This document shows positions 3,233-20,781 of a stretch of DNA of 35,244 nucleotides, in pieces. The translations under genes and the position numbers were made by a program. Numbering within the stretch: the first letter of the stretch is position 1; each line of letters begins with the position of its first letter. Under the pieces are notes generated by a model. The model did not search any database. It had not been told where the DNA came from and saw only the letters and a list, made by a program, of their open reading frames with translations. The stretch spans positions 1 through 35,244 of IMG/VR virus record IMGVR_UViG_3300032677_000097. The stretch is one strand, 5' to 3'. The DNA is from a virus.

Positions 3233-3234
3233 CT
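3206..3234 (-). repeat. 29-bp direct repeat copy A (promoter block)
   Basis: Twenty-nine bases, including the -35 and the whole spacer, are identical to 18630-18658. Both copies point the same way. The match ends inside the -10 region, where the copies differ by a small shift. Confidence 0.9.
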
Positions 3235-3478
3235 ACTTGGATTTGAGCTTGCTGTGTACGTACTGATGTAAGGTGTTTAAATAGTTGGTTTGAGTAAGCA
3301 TTTTAAACTCTAATGCTTCTAAACGGTGCTTTAATTGTTGGTTTTCGTGCTGTAAATACTCCAGGGTCAGTTTAGTATCCTTGAGTACTTTCTCGTGGCT
3401 AAGTAGGTTAGGACGTGGTGGAGCATTAGGATCCACAGCCCGTTTCTTCTTAGGTTTATACATGTTAAATATGCTCAT
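3233..3478 (-). CDS. coiled-coil hypothetical protein, 81 aa
   Basis: The N-terminus is basic and proline-rich (YKPKKKRAVDPNAPPRP). From about residue 28 onward a heptad-like Leu/Gln pattern (LEYLQHENQQLKHRLEALE) predicts a coiled coil, so the protein is probably oligomeric. The ATG overlaps the cupin stop as ATGA, and a GATAAATA box lies just upstream (3485-3492). It is the last gene before the promoter at 3204. No function is recognised. Confidence 0.7.
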   Translation of the reverse strand: MSIFNMYKPKKKRAVDPNAPPRPNLLSHEKVLKDTKLTLEYLQHENQQLKHRLEALEFKMLTQTNYLNTLHQYVHSKLKSK

Positions 3479-3798
3479 ACTAGATATTTATCGTTGGGCA
3501 CACTTGGGAATTTTACTGCTACTGTATCTGTATCTTCTGTATAGACCGCTTCGTTGACATCGCCGGGTTCTACAATGCAAATATCACCTGCACGGAATTC
3601 TTCTCCGTTTAGAATCATACAACCACGGGTAATCAATTGTATCTCTGTAATCACTGCATGATAGTGTTTGGGATAACTAGTTCCTGCTAAATTAGTTTGA
3701 AAGCAAACTTCAAAGTCTTCGGTTCGCACTACTGCTCCGGGAAAGTTACCAATAAACCATCCGCGGGCTCCTGCGTCACTTAGTCGATGTCTTTTCAT
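3475..3798 (-). CDS. cupin-fold protein paired with a radical SAM enzyme
   Basis: The 107-aa protein fits a single cupin beta-barrel: the first cupin motif contains PKHYHAVITEIQLITRG (H-x-H-type metal ligands with a downstream Glu), and the second contains FRAGDICIVEPGDVNEAVY. The start at ATG 3798 follows the radical SAM stop (TAA, then 1 nt, then ATG); an in-frame GTG at 3819 is less likely. Small cupins act as sugar epimerases or isomerases, metal-dependent oxygenases or ligand sensors, and the exact chemistry is not visible. Direct coupling to the radical SAM gene suggests the two products act in one modification pathway. Confidence 0.78.
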   Translation of the reverse strand: MKRHRLSDAGARGWFIGNFPGAVVRTEDFEVCFQTNLAGTSYPKHYHAVITEIQLITRGCMILNGEEFRAGDICIVEPGDVNEAVYTEDTDTVAVKFPSVPNDKYLV

Positions 3799-3799
3799 A

Positions 3800-4996
3800 T
3801 TATTTCCAATACGGTGCAAATTCGGGTACTACATCTAATACATTTTCGTTACGTACTTGATCGAGACGTTGCGTAGTTTCAATTACCGCAGACCAAGACG
3901 ATTCCGGTGCTTGGTACATATATGTAATTACAGCATCAATTTTATTTTTAAGAACTTGGTACTTGCTACTAGACACCAAACGATCTCTTGCTAAATCTTT
4001 TAATTCTATAGGTAAATTAGTAATATTTTGATCTGCTGGACCATGCGCTATGGTAAGATCTGTTCCAGCAAAGTTTGTAGTATTGTCAATGGCAAAATCA
4101 AATACTTCTGTTAGATGCAAGATATTATATACTGTAATCACTACATTGAATTTTAATTTTGCGGCAGGATATGCTAATACCGTTTTAATATTAGTTTGTG
4201 TAGTTGCCCAATTGGCACCAGATCGAACATATTCTAATAACGGGCCTGTGGCATCAAGGCTCACAATAAACAACACATTAGTAAATCGTTTTAGGTAATC
4301 TTCTAATTGCTTCTTGCCAAAATTTAATTTACTTAAATTTGTTGTGTAGGTAATACGTATATTGTGTAGGCCTAATTGATCTAAGTGATCCAACATTGAC
4401 CAGTGTTCTTTTTGATATAGTGCTTCACCACCAGCAAAGTATACTTCCTTCAGTTCAGATAAATCGCCATACTTGGCAATAATATCTTCCCATTCATCTG
4501 TATCATGTGCTTGTATTACGTAGTCCTTGCGCCCGGTTCCACGATAGGCTTCTTCTGCCCAGGAATGACTATAAGCAGGGCCGCACATGCGACATTTAAA
4601 ATTACAGATGTTGCTAAATCTGGCATCCCAATACTGCATTTTAAAATTATGCAACTTGCCATCAGTTTCAGTATTTGCTAATAGTGTGTCAACATTGATG
4701 TTGAAGTTTTTGATATCTAGATTCTTATTTTCACGAAAACTAGCAAGTCCGTGTTGTTCTTCGCGATAGCATTGGCTACAGGCAGAGTTCTTCTTGCCTG
4801 CCAACATATCCGTTCTGACCTTTTTCATAGAATCAGAATTCATTATATCTTCTGCTGACTCAAAGTCCTTTATGTTACCAAATTTTCCGTCACCGGGATT
4901 GGCAGAACAGCAAGCACGTATTTCACCACTGGGCTCATGAAAGAAATGAATCCAGGGTAAAATACAAAAAGTATTACTGGGCAGGGGTTTCTGCAT
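3800..4996 (-). CDS. radical SAM enzyme with N-terminal Cys (twitch-like) domain
   Basis: The 398-aa protein has the canonical radical SAM cluster motif CNFKCRMC (Cys131, 135, 138), followed by a glycine-rich SAM-binding segment (EVYFAGGEALY) and further TIM-barrel strands (ITYTTNLS, FIVSLDATG). The N-terminal region begins FCILPWIHFF and has extra cysteines (11, 29, 30, 73, 76) in a layout typical of 'twitch domain-containing radical SAM' proteins, where they bind an auxiliary Fe-S cluster. It should cleave SAM to a 5'-deoxyadenosyl radical and modify a sugar, peptide or nucleotide; the substrate is unknown. Its 5' end overlaps the upstream gene by 23 bp, and the cupin gene follows directly. 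Confidence 0.88.
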   Translation of the reverse strand: MQKPLPSNTFCILPWIHFFHEPSGEIRACCSANPGDGKFGNIKDFESAEDIMNSDSMKKVRTDMLAGKKNSACSQCYREEQHGLASFRENKNLDIKNFNINVDTLLANTETDGKLHNFKMQYWDARFSNICNFKCRMCGPAYSHSWAEEAYRGTGRKDYVIQAHDTDEWEDIIAKYGDLSELKEVYFAGGEALYQKEHWSMLDHLDQLGLHNIRITYTTNLSKLNFGKKQLEDYLKRFTNVLFIVSLDATGPLLEYVRSGANWATTQTNIKTVLAYPAAKLKFNVVITVYNILHLTEVFDFAIDNTTNFAGTDLTIAHGPADQNITNLPIELKDLARDRLVSSSKYQVLKNKIDAVITYMYQAPESSWSAVIETTQRLDQVRNENVLDVVPEFAPYWK

Positions 4997-5354
4997 CTTC
5001 TACTGGAGTTTCTTCTACAGCTTCTTCTTTGGGAATAAACTGTTCTAAGTAAGCCATATCCAACTGTGCCATTGTTTGAATAACGTACTGTGGATAACCT
5101 TCTAAGAAGTATTTGAACATTTCGTCGAATGTTTTAGTGGTGCCAAACTTGTTGTATACAATTTTCTTTTCGTTAAGATTTAGAATAACACCTGCGTACT
5201 GACGATCTTTGCCAGAGAGCCCTTTGGTGAACTCGATACGCTCATCGTATTGATAATTGTCTGGATTCTTTGTCCAGCCAGCAATTTGTGTTTGTACTCC
5301 GGCACGCGGCTTTTGTACATAAAATGCGAGTAAGTGAATATCTTTAATTTTCAT
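4974..5354 (-). CDS. conserved T4-like hypothetical protein after the clamp loader, 126 aa
   Basis: The start overlaps the clamp-loader stop as ATGA, so expression is coupled to gp44. In T4 the small clamp-loader subunit gp62 occupies this place, but this protein is shorter than T4 gp62 (187 aa) and I do not see clear similarity. Visible features are an N-terminal strand (IHLLAFYVQKPR), a middle part rich in aromatics (YFLEGYPQYVI) and an acidic Glu/Pro/Ala tail (KEEAVEETPVEDAETPAQ) that is probably disordered. It could be a diverged gp62-like partner or an unrelated replication accessory protein. Confidence 0.68.
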   Translation of the reverse strand: MKIKDIHLLAFYVQKPRAGVQTQIAGWTKNPDNYQYDERIEFTKGLSGKDRQYAGVILNLNEKKIVYNKFGTTKTFDEMFKYFLEGYPQYVIQTMAQLDMAYLEQFIPKEEAVEETPVEDAETPAQ

Positions 5355-6268
5355 AGTTGTGTAAGTTCGATTAAGGTTGCTGATAGGTTAATTTCTTGAT
5401 CTGCTACTAGTGGTACGTTTACAAGACCTTTGCGAATTGCTAAAATTGCTGCGTCTTGCCCTTCTTGAGTTTTTGACCATAAGTCTAAGTTATCGTACAT
5501 CCAACGGAACATATCATCCATGTCCTCAATGGTTGCTTGAGCACAAATAACCTTACGTGCATCTACGATCTTGCCTGCTTTAAATAGAGCTACTGCATCT
5601 AGTTTCCAATCCTTAACACCACGATCATTTTCGCCTGGAGTATTTAACTTACCAGAGCTTGAATTGGGCTGTAGCAAGTTTAGACATTTACGTAGATCTG
5701 GATATGTTGCCTTGACATAACTGTCTAGAGTATCTAGATCAAATTCAATATTTTCTGTTACTAAAATAGTTGCTGCACGTGCTGTAAATTCTGTTACATC
5801 ACTTTTATCAATATGAAAACCTTGACAACGACTGTGTAGTGCTGGGATAATCTTATGTGGCATGTTGCAAGTAAGAATAAAACGTGCCGACTCTTGATAC
5901 GTTTCCATTAGGCCACGCATGATGGCTTGAGCATTGTGTGTTAGGTAATCCGCTTCGTCTAACAAGACTACTTTAAACTTACCAAATGGCATTGTGCTAA
6001 CAAAACCTTCAACACGAGTTTTAATAAAATCCACACCGTTATCACGTGATGCATTAATATGCAAGGTATCGTAATCTTCTACGCCTAGTTCGTTAATAAG
6101 AACTTTGGCCAAGGTAGTCTTGCCTGTGCCCGGACTTCCGCTTAATAAGATATGCGGAATAACCCCATCTTTGATCCAGGCATCAACCTGATCTCGTTGC
6201 GATTGATCGGTGAATACATAATCTCCTACTACCTTAGGTCTGTATTGTTCTGTCCAAAGTTGTTTCAT
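5351..6268 (-). CDS. 44: sliding-clamp loader large subunit (gp44-like AAA+ ATPase)
   Basis: The 305-aa protein shows the clamp-loader layout: an N-terminal WTEQYRPK box, Walker A GSPGTGKTT (residues 44-52), Walker B with the DEAD signature (104-107), sensor 1 ILTCN, and the SRC arginine-finger motif (146-148). A C-terminal helical domain follows. Length is close to T4 gp44 (319 aa). With its partner subunit it should open and load the gp45-type sliding clamp for phage DNA polymerase and late transcription. Its ATG overlaps the stop of the upstream 63-aa gene as ATGA. No clamp gene or DNA polymerase lies inside the window. Confidence 0.93.
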   Translation of the reverse strand: MKQLWTEQYRPKVVGDYVFTDQSQRDQVDAWIKDGVIPHILLSGSPGTGKTTLAKVLINELGVEDYDTLHINASRDNGVDFIKTRVEGFVSTMPFGKFKVVLLDEADYLTHNAQAIMRGLMETYQESARFILTCNMPHKIIPALHSRCQGFHIDKSDVTEFTARAATILVTENIEFDLDTLDSYVKATYPDLRKCLNLLQPNSSSGKLNTPGENDRGVKDWKLDAVALFKAGKIVDARKVICAQATIEDMDDMFRWMYDNLDLWSKTQEGQDAAILAIRKGLVNVPLVADQEINLSATLIELTQL

Positions 6269-6991: not shown

Positions 6992-7363
6992 TTACCAACG
7001 GTCTTTTGCATCAATTTGAGTTGCACTACTTAGACTATCATCACTTGGCTCAGATTCTGAAACCAGTAAGATGTCGGCCGGGTCAATTCTGCGAATTGTG
7101 ACTTCGCCTGTTGTGTCTTCGATAGTAACACCCCGAGTCCAACGTCCGTGGCTTACCAAAACCCATTGCCCAATGGTAATATCTTCTTGTTCTGGTCCAG
7201 TAGCGTATACCTGTGCCCAACGTGGACGAATACCTGCACCACGTCCATCATCGTTTAACAAATAGATACCACTACTTAGTTTACGTTCTTTGAAATTCAT
7301 ATCAGATACAAGCACATGATCATTTAGTGCTCGTAAATTATCTACTTTGATTGGTTTAAACAT
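6992..7363 (-). CDS. GroES/gp31-like co-chaperonin
   Basis: The 123-aa protein follows the Hsp10 plan: an early LRALNDHVLVSDM strand (compare 'P-L-x-D-R-V-L-V' in GroES), a loop with SSGIYLLNDDG in the mobile-loop region, then beta strands with VYATGPEQ and the closing IDPADILLVSES. T4 gp31 replaces host GroES and allows folding of the major capsid protein, so this protein most likely partners host GroEL in head assembly. The C-terminal 20 residues are an acidic/Ser-rich extension. The ATG lies 2 nt after the stop of the 150-aa gene that starts behind a late promoter, so it is probably made late. Confidence 0.8.
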   Translation of the reverse strand: MFKPIKVDNLRALNDHVLVSDMNFKERKLSSGIYLLNDDGRGAGIRPRWAQVYATGPEQEDITIGQWVLVSHGRWTRGVTIEDTTGEVTIRRIDPADILLVSESEPSDDSLSSATQIDAKDRW

Positions 7364-7365
7364 AA

Positions 7366-7818
7366 TTAGATTCTTGTCGGTCCGTTTGATTTTGCTTGTT
7401 CTTTTGGAGTCGGTAATGGTTCTTGTGTAACTGTTGCAGGAGCCGCCAGACTATTTGCTAAACTACCACGAGCTGATGGTTGTGCTGGTTGCTTGTCTGG
7501 TGATGCTGGAACATTAGTTGTTACAGTTAAGTTATTTGCCAAATCTGTTAATTGCTGTGCATTACTAGCTTCTAGTATTGTTTTTTGTGTTTGATATTCG
7601 TGTGGATCATTTGGACTATAGCCAGCACCAGCTGATGGTACCGCATACACTTGATCCATAATTGCGTTTCGTCCAGCGGCAATTTTACCACCAGCACCAA
7701 TTAAATCACCACGTGCGTTTACCTTCATGTTTCCAACTGCGATTGCTGTTTCGTTGGTTAATTTAATTTTGTCCATATCAACTGCTTGACCACGTGCTGT
7801 TTTATATATTCTTGCCAT
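7366..7818 (-). CDS. conserved T4-like late protein, probably virion-associated, 150 aa
   Basis: The protein opens MARIYKTARGQAVDMDKIKL and then has AVGNMKVNARGDLIGAGGK, a signature I associate with a conserved protein of T4-like marine phages. The second half is rich in Ala, Thr and Pro and ends TPKEQAKSNGPTRI, so it is likely flexible. A TATAAATA late box (7838-7845) and a clear CTCCTT-complement ribosome site (7826-7831) precede the ATG at 7818, which points to late expression and a structural or assembly role. No exact function is known. Confidence 0.75.
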   Translation of the reverse strand: MARIYKTARGQAVDMDKIKLTNETAIAVGNMKVNARGDLIGAGGKIAAGRNAIMDQVYAVPSAGAGYSPNDPHEYQTQKTILEASNAQQLTDLANNLTVTTNVPASPDKQPAQPSARGSLANSLAAPATVTQEPLPTPKEQAKSNGPTRI

Positions 7819-7837
7819 TTTAATTCTCCTTGTATGC

Positions 7838-7845
7838 TATTTATA
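7838..7845 (-). promoter_or_regulatory. T4-type late promoter box TATAAATA
   Basis: A perfect match to the T4 late consensus on the minus strand lies 20 bp before the start of the gene at 7818, with an AAGGAG ribosome site between them. It is in the only gap of this block (7819-7856). Confidence 0.8.
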
Positions 7846-7856
7846 AACTGGGTAGT

Positions 7857-8369
7857 TTACTTTAAAAATTCTTCAATCGGAAGATCGTAATATAAGCTAT
7901 TAACCTTGTGAACACCCAATAGGTATAATACATAACTTGCTACACTTGATCCACGACCTAATCCCCATACTACCTTGTTTGCTCGCATGGTATCTACAAA
8001 ATATTTCAAATAGCGTAGCAAGTTAAACAGGTCACGTTCCTGGTATAATAGTAGTTCTTCGCCCACACGTTGCAATTCAGGCGCTGTCTTGCACAAATCC
8101 AAGATATGTTGGGCTATATCTAATGTTTTATATTCGTCTGGCATGTGCCAGTTATTTTGATTTTCGTTATCAAATTGTTCAACCGGTATGTTACGTGGTA
8201 TCCATTGTTGCAATGATGGAATATCTGCATACGTTTTGTTTACAGCCACGTTGAACAAGTTGGCATCTTCAACGTAGAATAGTTCTAGCATCAAATCGGG
8301 ATTTTGATAAAGCATATCGGCCAACTCATTTGTGTTGGTGTATGCTTGACCATGAGTATCATACTTCAT
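7857..8369 (-). CDS. DnaE-like polymerase III alpha fragment protein, 170 aa
   Basis: The C-terminal 40 residues (VWGLGRGSSVASYVLYLLG, then YYDLPIEEFL) closely resemble the C-family polymerase segment G-x-G-R-G-S-x-x-G-S ... L-x-Y-x-L-x-F-E-R-F-L. The rest is helical. The catalytic P-D-I-D-x-D aspartates that follow in DnaE are absent because the protein ends just before them. It therefore cannot be a polymerase. Relatives occur in T4-like marine phages, sometimes annotated as polymerase III alpha. It could be a decoy, a nucleotide or DNA binder, or a relic with a new role. The ATG overlaps the next upstream stop as ATGA. Confidence 0.72.
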   Translation of the reverse strand: MKYDTHGQAYTNTNELADMLYQNPDLMLELFYVEDANLFNVAVNKTYADIPSLQQWIPRNIPVEQFDNENQNNWHMPDEYKTLDIAQHILDLCKTAPELQRVGEELLLYQERDLFNLLRYLKYFVDTMRANKVVWGLGRGSSVASYVLYLLGVHKVNSLYYDLPIEEFLK

Positions 8370-16447: not shown

Positions 16448-16774
16448 TTACTCAGGGCTAAAGCTAGATCCGCAACCACAGGATGTTACAGCATTGGGAT
16501 TTTTGATGCTAAAACTACTGCCCATGTCAGATTCGACATAATCTATAACAGCACCTTGTAGGTAATTACTGCTCATAGAATCTACGTAGACAGTTACACC
16601 ATCAACTTCGATATCCCAATCATCCTCGGCTTGAGTATCGTCTAGGGTAAATCCATAGCTCATGCCTGAACAACCGCCGCCTTGTACAAATACTCGTAAC
16701 TTAAGGTCAGGATTGTTTTCTTCTGCCAGGATATCTTTAATTTTTACTACTGCTGAGTCTGTTATTGTTATCAT
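16448..16774 (-). CDS. IscA/ErpA (HesB) type Fe-S cluster carrier
   Basis: The 108-aa protein has the A-type carrier fold throughout: [18 protein letters not shown] at the start, [15 protein letters not shown] with Cys35, and a C-terminal CGCG with Cys99 and Cys101. All three cluster-binding cysteines are present and the length equals that of bacterial IscA/ErpA. It should accept and hand over [2Fe-2S] or [4Fe-4S] clusters. HesB-like genes are known from T4-like cyanophages. Its ATG overlaps the SOD stop as ATGA, tying Fe-S supply and oxidative protection together; the phage also carries a radical SAM enzyme that needs clusters. Confidence 0.92.
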
Positions 16775-18625: not shown

Positions 18626-18656
18626 ATTATATAGCATTATGGGAATTAATGGTCAA
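18626..18656 (-). promoter_or_regulatory. sigma70-like promoter inside the 3' end of tctA
   Basis: TTGACC (18656-18651), then TATATA after 17 bp (18633-18628) or TATAAT after 19 bp (18631-18626), minus strand. The whole -35 and spacer are read as the last codons of tctA (K-L-T-I-N-S-H-N-A-I-stop). It should drive the two small membrane genes downstream. Confidence 0.8.
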
Positions 18657-20123
18657 CTTACGCACAAACCCATATACACTATAGGCTATAAACACACCAA
18701 TGATCACCAGCATTGTAGCACTAATCGGACTGGTCCAAAATGGGCTAAAATCTCCTCTTGATATTGTCATTTCTCTGCGGAAGTTTTCTTCCAACATAGG
18801 GCCCAGAATAAAGCCCAGCATTAAGGGTGCAGCCTCCATACCCAACTTCAGGAACGTATATCCGATTATACCAAAGACTACCGTGGTATATATATCTTCA
18901 ATATTGTTGTTGGTACTGTAGGTGCCGAGACAACAAAAGAATAAAATACACGGGAATAGTACTGCATACGGAATCTTGAATACTGTTAACCAAAGTCTAA
19001 CCATTGGTACATTCAAGATAAGCAAGAATACATTGCCAATCCACATACTTGCAATTAGTCCCCAAAATACGTCTGGGTGCCTGTCAATCATCTGCGGGCC
19101 CGGAGTAATACCTTTGATCATTAACGCACCTAGTATCAGAGCCATAACAGCATTTTCTGGGATACCTATTGACATCAGGGGAATAAAACTTGTACGAGCC
19201 GCGGCTTCATCAGCGGCCGCCTGTCCGGCTACTCCTTCAATGGCTCCGGTTCCTATTTCATCTCTATACTTGCTGAACTTTTTATCTATGGCATAAGCAC
19301 CGTATTGAGCAATAGTAGGACCGCCGCCAGGTAACAGGCCCAAGAAACTACCCACAATACTACCACGCAGGGCCGACGGAATAATACGTTTAAATTCGGC
19401 CCAAGTCGGCATTAATTTAATATTGCCAGTAAAAGGTGTACGCTCATCTCGTTTATCTAAGTTGCTGACAATTTCTGCAAGCCCAAAGCAACCAATGGCA
19501 ATACTAACTATTCCCACACCGTCCATCAAAAAAGGAAATCCCATTGTATAACGTGTAACACCACTATTGACGTCAGTACCAATCATGCCCAGCAGTACTC
19601 CGATACACACCATGCCCAGACCATTGACCAAACTACCAGTGGTAATTAAACTGACGCAGACAAATCCTAGCAACATTAACATTACATATTCTGTAGGACC
19701 AAACAGGAATGCCACATCGCCTAGCATAGGAGCAAACGCCACAACAATAACAGCCGACACAGTTCCACCAATAAAACTACTGACACCTGCTGTAAACAGG
19801 GCAAGACCGGTGCGTCCTTGTAGGTGCATTTGATATCCGTCAATGCAGGCAACAATACTACTGGCATGCGGAATCTTCATGGTAATAGCACTTACACTAT
19901 CTCCGTATTGTGCGCCATAGTAAATACCTGCCAACATAATAATAGCACCGGTTGTTGGCATTGCATAAGTCAATGGTAACAATAAACTAATGGTAGCAAT
20001 CGGGCCCAGGCCGGGTAATAATCCGATCAAGGTTCCCACAAAGCACCCAATGGCGCAGTACATTAAATTTTGTACAGTAAATGCTGTGTCAAATCCCGAT
20101 GCAAGGTGTGCAAGTATATCCAT
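18627..20123 (-). CDS. tctA: TctA-family large membrane subunit, tripartite tricarboxylate transporter
   Basis: The 498-aa protein has the normal TctA length and its two signature loops: GLLPGLGPIATISLLLPLTY near residues 34-53 and GLLPGGGPTIAQYGAYAIDK near 262-281. About a dozen hydrophobic helices are visible. With TctB and a periplasmic TctC it imports citrate or other carboxylates using the ion gradient. No TctC is present here, so the phage pair would need a host binding protein. The last ten residues are encoded by a promoter block that also occurs at 3206-3234, so the original C-terminus may have been replaced. The ATG overlaps the tctB stop as TAATG. Confidence 0.93.
   Translation of the reverse strand: MDILAHLASGFDTAFTVQNLMYCAIGCFVGTLIGLLPGLGPIATISLLLPLTYAMPTTGAIIMLAGIYYGAQYGDSVSAITMKIPHASSIVACIDGYQMHLQGRTGLALFTAGVSSFIGGTVSAVIVVAFAPMLGDVAFLFGPTEYVMLMLLGFVCVSLITTGSLVNGLGMVCIGVLLGMIGTDVNSGVTRYTMGFPFLMDGVGIVSIAIGCFGLAEIVSNLDKRDERTPFTGNIKLMPTWAEFKRIIPSALRGSIVGSFLGLLPGGGPTIAQYGAYAIDKKFSKYRDEIGTGAIEGVAGQAAADEAAARTSFIPLMSIGIPENAVMALILGALMIKGITPGPQMIDRHPDVFWGLIASMWIGNVFLLILNVPMVRLWLTVFKIPYAVLFPCILFFCCLGTYSTNNNIEDIYTTVVFGIIGYTFLKLGMEAAPLMLGFILGPMLEENFRREMTISRGDFSPFWTSPISATMLVIIGVFIAYSVYGFVRKLTINSHNAI
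18630..18658 (-). repeat. 29-bp direct repeat copy B (promoter block)
   Basis: Exact match to 3206-3234 in the same orientation. Here it doubles as the coding end of tctA, while copy A is intergenic. Confidence 0.9.
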
Positions 20124-20539
20124 TATAGTGGTAAATTTAATCCAAGTAAATATTTGAATGCAAGTGTAATCAATACCAGCCCTATAGTAATTTTAATAAC
20201 TCTTGCAATAGAGTAAGTTGATGCAGCAGTCGATGCAACTGAAGCAAGTATTACAATACCTAAGATCATGCCGCAGTATTCAGTAGCTACAGCAAACCCA
20301 AGTAGTGCCAGGGAAATAATAATAATGTTTCTAAATTTAAAATCAACCGGTACTGCATCTATCAAGCGACTTTTAATAATGATAATCAGTCCTAGTACAA
20401 GTAAGAATACACTGACTGCAATAGGAAACAGTCCTGCGCCCGGATCGGCAAAGTTGCCAACAGTATATCTAAATCCATTGAGGCCAAACACAATAGAAAA
20501 CACAATGAACAGTATACCAGTTAATAAGTTTTTATTCAT
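20123..20539 (-). CDS. tctB: TctB-family small membrane subunit, tripartite tricarboxylate transporter
   Basis: The 138-aa protein shows four hydrophobic helices and the TctB signature after the first one (FADPGAGLFPIAVSVFLLVL). The ATG at 20539 overlaps the stop of the upstream small gene as ATGA; an in-frame ATG at 20551 is less likely. TctB is the small integral subunit that pairs with TctA. The gene is coupled to the end of the small-protein array upstream and to tctA downstream, so all may share the transcript from 26366-26394. Confidence 0.88.
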   Translation of the reverse strand: MNKNLLTGILFIVFSIVFGLNGFRYTVGNFADPGAGLFPIAVSVFLLVLGLIIIIKSRLIDAVPVDFKFRNIIIISLALLGFAVATEYCGMILGIVILASVASTAASTYSIARVIKITIGLVLITLAFKYLLGLNLPL

Positions 20540-20781
20540 TGTTCTATCCACCCTTTAATTATTTCCATTGCTTTGACATTGTTGGTTTCATAGTATAATC
20601 TAACACTTTGTTGTTTACCTAAATCTCCATCATTGTTCCAGATCTTATCTACTTCGTTAAAGTAGTTTAGGAAGCCTTGTCCTAGTCTATAGTCTGGACT
20701 TTTAAGTAATTGCCAAGCATAGTGCTCCTCAAATTCCGCCCACCGTTCTTTGGAGATTCGGTATTGATTTGGATTTGTCAT
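20536..20781 (-). CDS. conserved phage hypothetical protein, 81 aa
   Basis: The protein is Trp/Tyr-rich: WAEFEEHYAWQLLKSPDYRL, then GQGFLNYFNEVDKIW and a C-terminal AMEIIKGWIEQ. The Y-R-x-G-Q-x-F-x-N-Y-F core is found in many T4-like phages; no role is known. It lacks the F-x-L-K-W ending and so is not a clear member of the array family, though it is coupled to it by ATGA overlaps at both ends. Confidence 0.7.
   Translation of the reverse strand: MTNPNQYRISKERWAEFEEHYAWQLLKSPDYRLGQGFLNYFNEVDKIWNNDGDLGKQQSVRLYYETNNVKAMEIIKGWIEQ

Follow-up and report, generated by a model that had tools for sequence, protein, structure and literature searches.

Two enzyme genes that touch in a viral genome raise the question of whether their products also work together. 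In the 35,244-base IMG/VR contig of an aquatic virus of bacteria (referred to as the window, i.e. the whole stretch of DNA that was analyzed), a gene for a radical SAM protein of 398 aa (3800..4996, minus strand, ATG start) is followed by a gene for a small cupin of 107 aa (3475..3798, minus strand). As the original prediction had noted, the two lie 1 nt apart: the TAA stop codon of the first gene (3802-3800) is separated by a single T from the ATG of the second at 3798. A coupled pair had been proposed on this ground, which would carry out a two-step modification. Gene order across related phages does not support such a pair; each gene occurs mostly without the other, and they are adjacent in the lineage of the window and in one other only. 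With a probability of about 0.7, two independent metabolic genes happen to touch here within the replication operon, at a cargo slot, each being likeliest to take part in surface or virion glycan chemistry, and not in successive steps.

The radical SAM protein and the cupin

The 398-aa protein matched the NCBIfam profile NF033640 ("twitch domain-containing radical SAM protein", N_Twi_rSAM) with 362 bits at a curated cutoff of 170. The match ran end to end, residues 7-396 being aligned to profile positions 1-397, and judged by its sequence the protein is a full member of this known N-terminal-twitch family. Pfam assigned Radical_SAM to residues 127-276 (5.7e-12) and SPASM (PF13186, 1.9e-7) to residues 11-77. 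In SPASM radical SAM enzymes this domain is C-terminal and holds two auxiliary clusters; in the window's protein no C-terminal SPASM domain was found, and the SPASM-type domain, with five cysteines, is the N-terminal one. The core motif CNFKCRMC is of the CX3CX2C type (C131, C135 and C138), and the five twitch cysteines are C11, C29, C30, C73 and C76. All eight were invariant in an alignment with 32 relatives, which confirms the cysteine pattern described at the outset. Loss of cluster cysteines had been named as an observation that would speak against the proposal; C11, C29, C73 and C76 and the three core cysteines are retained even by 15 paralogues that have diverged strongly. The dN/dS ratio of 0.125 (window versus the related contig L005) indicates purifying selection on the gene.

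Profile comparison related the twitch region to BtrN (1.7e-5) and the core to viperin (2.3e-5). BtrN is an aminocyclitol dehydrogenase whose twitch is C-terminal, whereas that of the window's protein is N-terminal. For the AlphaFold2 model (pLDDT 88.5) the best fold matches were viperin, BlsE, SPASM maturases and DesII, with TM-scores so low (0.3-0.5) that no shared function is claimed. Among phage protein records only Vibrio phages matched, at <27% identity. A single-protein search of bacterial genomes gave no match, and an alignment search with the family gave 79 bacterial loci, all distant (<=36%). In most loci, relatives of the gene in other phages are clustered, with 2-6 of them within 11 kb; NF033640 members are thus multi-copy elsewhere in aquatic phages, whereas the 35 kb of the window hold one copy, which sits in the replication-operon slot beside the cupin. 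In a jumbo-sized contig of 260,723 bases (L048-L054), 12 twitch radical SAM genes exceed the curated cutoff, and other radical SAM proteins are encoded as well. Our literature search found no report on the chemistry of phage twitch radical SAM proteins.

The cupin belongs to phrog_24762 (2.4e-26). Its metal triad HxHx4E, corresponding to motif 1 (HxH(x)3-4E), is formed by H45, H47 and E52, which were invariant in 34 sequences. The motif 2 histidine, the usual fourth ligand, is absent, N82 or varying residues being found in its place; this histidine is not universal in the cupin superfamily, and as many cupins lack it, membership is not barred. The AlphaFold2 model (pLDDT 96.2) is mostly beta and has the double-stranded beta-helix fold, with structure matches to small cupins (Foldseek E 6e-6; VIA Z up to 12.8). 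Small metal cupins were matched (archaeal phosphomannose isomerase, KdgF and DddK), as was the nucleoside dehydratase Pac13. The fold matches of both proteins are generic. The cupin gene is likewise under purifying selection, with dN/dS of about 0.08-0.11 (window versus L011/L012) at dS near saturation. A TTG at 3819, which would make the cupin gene overlap the radical SAM gene, was rejected as its start, since the conserved start of the relatives fits the ATG at 3798. Among phage protein records the cupin matched three Synechococcus phage records only. Gp207 of Synechococcus phage Bellamy is also a member of phrog_24762, with 34% identity and with HxHx4E and the C-terminal DK kept; it lies within a nucleotide-sugar/glycosyltransferase operon, whereas the slot cupins group in a clade of their own. 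In the cupin tree the split between slot clade and glycan-cassette clade had support of 98/97, and going by this separation the function of the slot cupin may have changed. Both proteins are new members of families already known.

A probable cargo slot beside the clamp loader gene

The two genes lie in an interval with conserved edges. Upstream is the gene for the clamp loader large subunit (5351..6268, minus strand), which is T4 gp44-like (phrog_168, 9e-78), followed by a conserved 126-aa gene (4974..5354, minus strand), which occupies the place that gene 62 has in T4 and forms the upstream edge of the slot. No link was detectable between its product and solved gp62 structures; consequently, gp62 serves as a positional label only. 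The downstream edge in most relatives is a conserved 81-aa gene (3233..3478, minus strand). In a survey of 80 clamp-loader and 80 cupin loci the commonest order was gp44, 126-aa gene, cupin and 81-aa gene, and it lacked any radical SAM gene. Across dozens of relatives the cupin is near-fixed between its two flanking genes, the 126-aa and the 81-aa one, and a radical SAM gene hardly ever accompanies it.

Radical SAM genes lie between the clamp loader and the 126-aa gene in L082 and L093. Outside the window-L005-L006 and L075-L103 groups, the slot radical SAM proteins were mutually only about 20-33% identical, from which we conclude that radical SAM genes entered the interval several times. Other genes, among them one for a B12-binding radical SAM protein, are likewise accepted by the interval (L159, L011), and L159 has an FkbM methyltransferase gene just before the clamp loader. 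The interval thus behaves like a cargo slot. The slot radical SAM matches of L066 and L185 had been considered for the twitch family and were read as not belonging to it.

Several neighboring features were observed in addition. In L075, L077, L082, L093 and L103, differing twitch radical SAM genes stand directly 3' of gp44 and overlap its end; the interval directly after gp44 is possibly an insertion hotspot. A GIY-YIG-type endonuclease gene below Pfam's curated cutoff lies at 581-1270 of the window, and L010 has a GIY-YIG look-alike, recognized by eye and without Pfam match. Such nearby endonuclease genes are a possible candidate cause of gene turnover at the slot. At 7857-8369 (minus strand) the window encodes a 170-aa protein with a partial match to the DNA polymerase III alpha domain (phrog_11127), and this polymerase-like gene is conserved upstream of the clamp loader in relatives.

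Distribution of the two genes

Close contact between genes is the rule in the window: in a hand-chosen gene chain, 41 of 59 same-strand neighboring genes overlap or lie within one base, and the 1-nt gap is therefore uninformative. The radical SAM-cupin order recurred in four other contigs; these were near-identical to the window and hence give no independent support for a pair. When slots were sampled by gp44 alone and dereplicated, the resulting 46 contained the cupin only in 11 cases, a radical SAM gene only in 6 (one of which, L066, was read as a radical SAM gene of another family), both in 1 and neither in 28 (Fisher p = 0.66). Whole-contig scans did not detect the radical SAM family in cupin-bearing contigs of 77.8, 157.9 and 140.8 kb, nor the cupin in two contigs (69 and 65 kb) with a radical SAM gene at the slot, both results being provisional, as the contigs are fragments. 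Near the radical SAM family, no cupin was found in any of 76 other viral or 79 bacterial loci.

The closest comparison is offered by L005. Its gp44 is 95% identical to that of the window and its sister in the gp44 tree (support 89/49, modest), and its radical SAM protein is 81% identical; in the place of the cupin, however, stands a gene for a 389-aa protein (7186-8355). A second adjacency was found in L159/L160/L161/L124, where the order is reversed, the cupin coming before a radical SAM gene whose product is about 26% identical to that of the window. Homologues in which the two genes are never adjacent had been put forward as the finding that would speak against a pair. This is nearly what was found: two lineages have the genes side by side, and elsewhere each stands without the other. 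A literature search for papers joining radical SAM with cupin in cyanophages, or radical SAM/SPASM with phage glycans, returned none.

Glycan context

The original prediction had included the possibility that the pair alters virion or host surface glycans. Relatives of each gene do sit with glycan or nucleotide-sugar genes, yet separately and not as a pair, and judging from these neighborhoods a surface or virion glycan role is our best guess for each gene on its own. Pfam scans of 82 neighbors of radical SAM relatives gave few informative matches, with each family in 1-3 members and most neighbors matching nothing. Glycosyltransferases, enzymes acting on CMP-sugars and UDP-sugars and an FkbM methyltransferase are among the neighbors; the matches included, one each, galactosyltransferase, family 2 glycosyltransferase, cytidylyltransferase, UDP-sugar dehydrogenase, FkbM methyltransferase, hexapeptide transferase and carbamoyltransferase. 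Within the 35,244 bases of the window itself no glycan genes were recognized. In pelagimyophages, radical SAM cassettes have been described in a glycosyltransferase-rich host-recognition cluster (PMC7029224). There, radical SAM genes likewise vary as added cassettes between related myophages; these cassettes belong to the host-recognition cluster, whereas the radical SAM gene of the window lies beside the clamp loader.

Cupin relatives lie between genes for a nucleotidyltransferase, a RuBisCO-like protein, a GDPD-like protein and glycosyltransferases. By sequence motif, 15 of the 18 cupin loci without a clamp-loader neighbor had at least one of the first three within six genes. A sugar-type small molecule is accordingly the leading guess for the cupin substrate, held with moderate confidence. 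A recurrent phage cassette with the order nucleotidyltransferase, cupin, RuBisCO-like, GDPD-like and glycosyltransferases was seen in L204 (4265-7061), L198, L199, L202, L206-L208 and L211-L213. In L204 Pfam confirmed the nucleotidyltransferase and the RuBisCO large-chain domain (PF00016, 144.9 bits); the GDPD reading was not confirmed. The phage RuBisCO-like protein beside the cupin in sugar clusters looks worth a separate study.

Interpretation and competing explanations

The preferred explanation starts from what was observed: the order and conservation of the genes, the missing association between them, cluster and metal motifs that are intact, and purifying selection. The slot belongs to a group of T4-like aquatic phages that is widespread; it is bounded by the clamp loader gene gp44 with the 126-aa gene on one side and the 81-aa gene on the other, and the cupin would be its long-term resident. 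In the lineage of the window a radical SAM gene would have been inserted just upstream of the cupin, and on several further occasions other members of the same large family would have entered the slot or a site next to it. The radical SAM protein would cleave SAM at its core [4Fe-4S] cluster, with the N-terminal twitch cluster holding the substrate or passing electrons onward, and would modify a sugar or another unactivated C-H site. The cupin would bind one divalent metal via His45, His47 and Glu52 and would isomerize, epimerize or oxidize a small, probably sugar-type, molecule. The end use of each protein would most likely be surface or virion glycan chemistry in infection, in separate reactions. 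Against this explanation stands that two separate lineages set a twitch radical SAM gene beside the slot cupin.

The second adjacency, with its reversed order, also argues for a true two-enzyme module, in which the radical SAM protein changes a nucleotide sugar (by dehydrogenation, epimerization or a C-C change) and the cupin then isomerizes or oxidizes the product, while relatives that lack one partner use another. The 1-nt spacing, the repetition of the order in the four near-identical contigs and the glycan contexts of relatives of both families agree with it. We nevertheless regard such a module as unlikely: the unbiased slot sample shows no association, close spacing is the rule in the window, L005 swapped the cupin for another gene and kept its radical SAM gene, and the radical SAM proteins of the two adjacent cases differ widely. 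A more promising candidate is the family of the 389-aa protein of L005, which in aquatic phages is found close to the majority of twitch radical SAM genes. This protein matched the ~390-aa neighbors of the radical SAM family in other phages with E-values to 1e-26, and its homologues lay within 3 genes of the radical SAM family in 57 of the 76 viral loci, and in 36 they were immediate neighbors. The count is to be taken as a guide and not as a rate, because these loci, some of which are redundant, were picked by closeness to the window's radical SAM gene. The control loci gave 1/80 (gp44) and 0/76 (cupin). The cupin might then be a bystander, with the real partner lost from the lineage of the window or kept elsewhere in its genome, of which 35 kb are known. 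Since the family is absent from the window's slot, in the L006 lineage the radical SAM gene stands by itself, and Pfam, PHROG and PDB give no usable match to the family, we hold this possibility tentatively, as the most plausible of the alternatives; it is compatible with independent genes in the slot. A reading as glycosyltransferase, suggested by eye from a SEKxFK..HPF block, found no usable profile match in Pfam, PHROG or PDB and is not claimed. As working partner of the twitch radical SAM protein, the ~390-aa family is in any case a better candidate than the cupin.

The position of the slot, near the clamp loader, the polymerase-like fragment and a nucleotidase-like gene, could alternatively mean that the genes act on nucleotides or DNA and not on glycans. 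Conservation of the cupin beside the clamp-loader gene across dozens of lineages points this way, as does the NT5C-like gene nearby (below Pfam's cutoff). However, the nearest non-slot cupin clade sits with sugar genes, and among the other cargo around the slot are an FkbM methyltransferase and a B12-type radical SAM protein. Pfam scans of the window and seven related contigs returned no TGT/DpdA-type or QueC gene over cutoff, so that the predicted role in DNA or nucleotide modification gained no support; the contigs are fragments, a divergent DpdA could escape, and the 7-deazaguanine type (QueC, TGT/DpdA) was the only one tested, so that the empty scans exclude little. Taken together, we consider action on nucleotides or DNA improbable. 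Two proteins with a GDSGGFQI motif that looks TGT-like by eye were noticed, one of 529 aa (L048 6024-7613), which had no Pfam match, and one of 505 aa (L055 5321-6838). Least probable of all appears a combination in which the slot cupin is a conserved metal-binding nucleotide or nucleotide-sugar enzyme of the replication operon and twitch radical SAM proteins are repeatedly recruited because their product is needed there and then. If true, it would amount to a previously undescribed replication-linked radical modification system. With independent genes as the preferred explanation, an attractive but wrong pairing is cleared away, and two leads take its place, namely the ~390-aa family and the cupin that is near-fixed within the replication operon in a large group of aquatic T4-like phages.

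Iron-sulfur carrier and tricarboxylate transporter

It had further been suggested that the phage's own IscA-type carrier supplies the clusters. The gene is indeed present (A-type, IscA/ErpA-like; 16448..16774, minus strand; PF01521, 79.6 bits), about 11.5 kb from the radical SAM and cupin genes and not linked to them. Two IscA copies each were also found in G008 and G011, in which no twitch radical SAM genes were detected; hence, the carrier is not specific to the radical SAM gene. The combination of multi-copy radical SAM genes and A-type Fe-S carriers in T4-like viruses is already published: among the environmental viruses described by Nishimura et al. 2017 (PMC5332604), one has 12 radical SAM genes. 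Those viruses resemble the present one in having an A-type carrier and radical SAM genes; they are marine, and the passages considered here name neither a cupin neighbor nor a clamp-loader slot.

The minus strand of the window also encodes TctA (18627-20123, 472.6 bits) and TctB (20123-20551) of a tripartite tricarboxylate transporter. Phage tctA is listed in a 2019 review (PMC6359870), so that these genes are not wholly new. TctC is encoded in relatives (L049 8876-9850).
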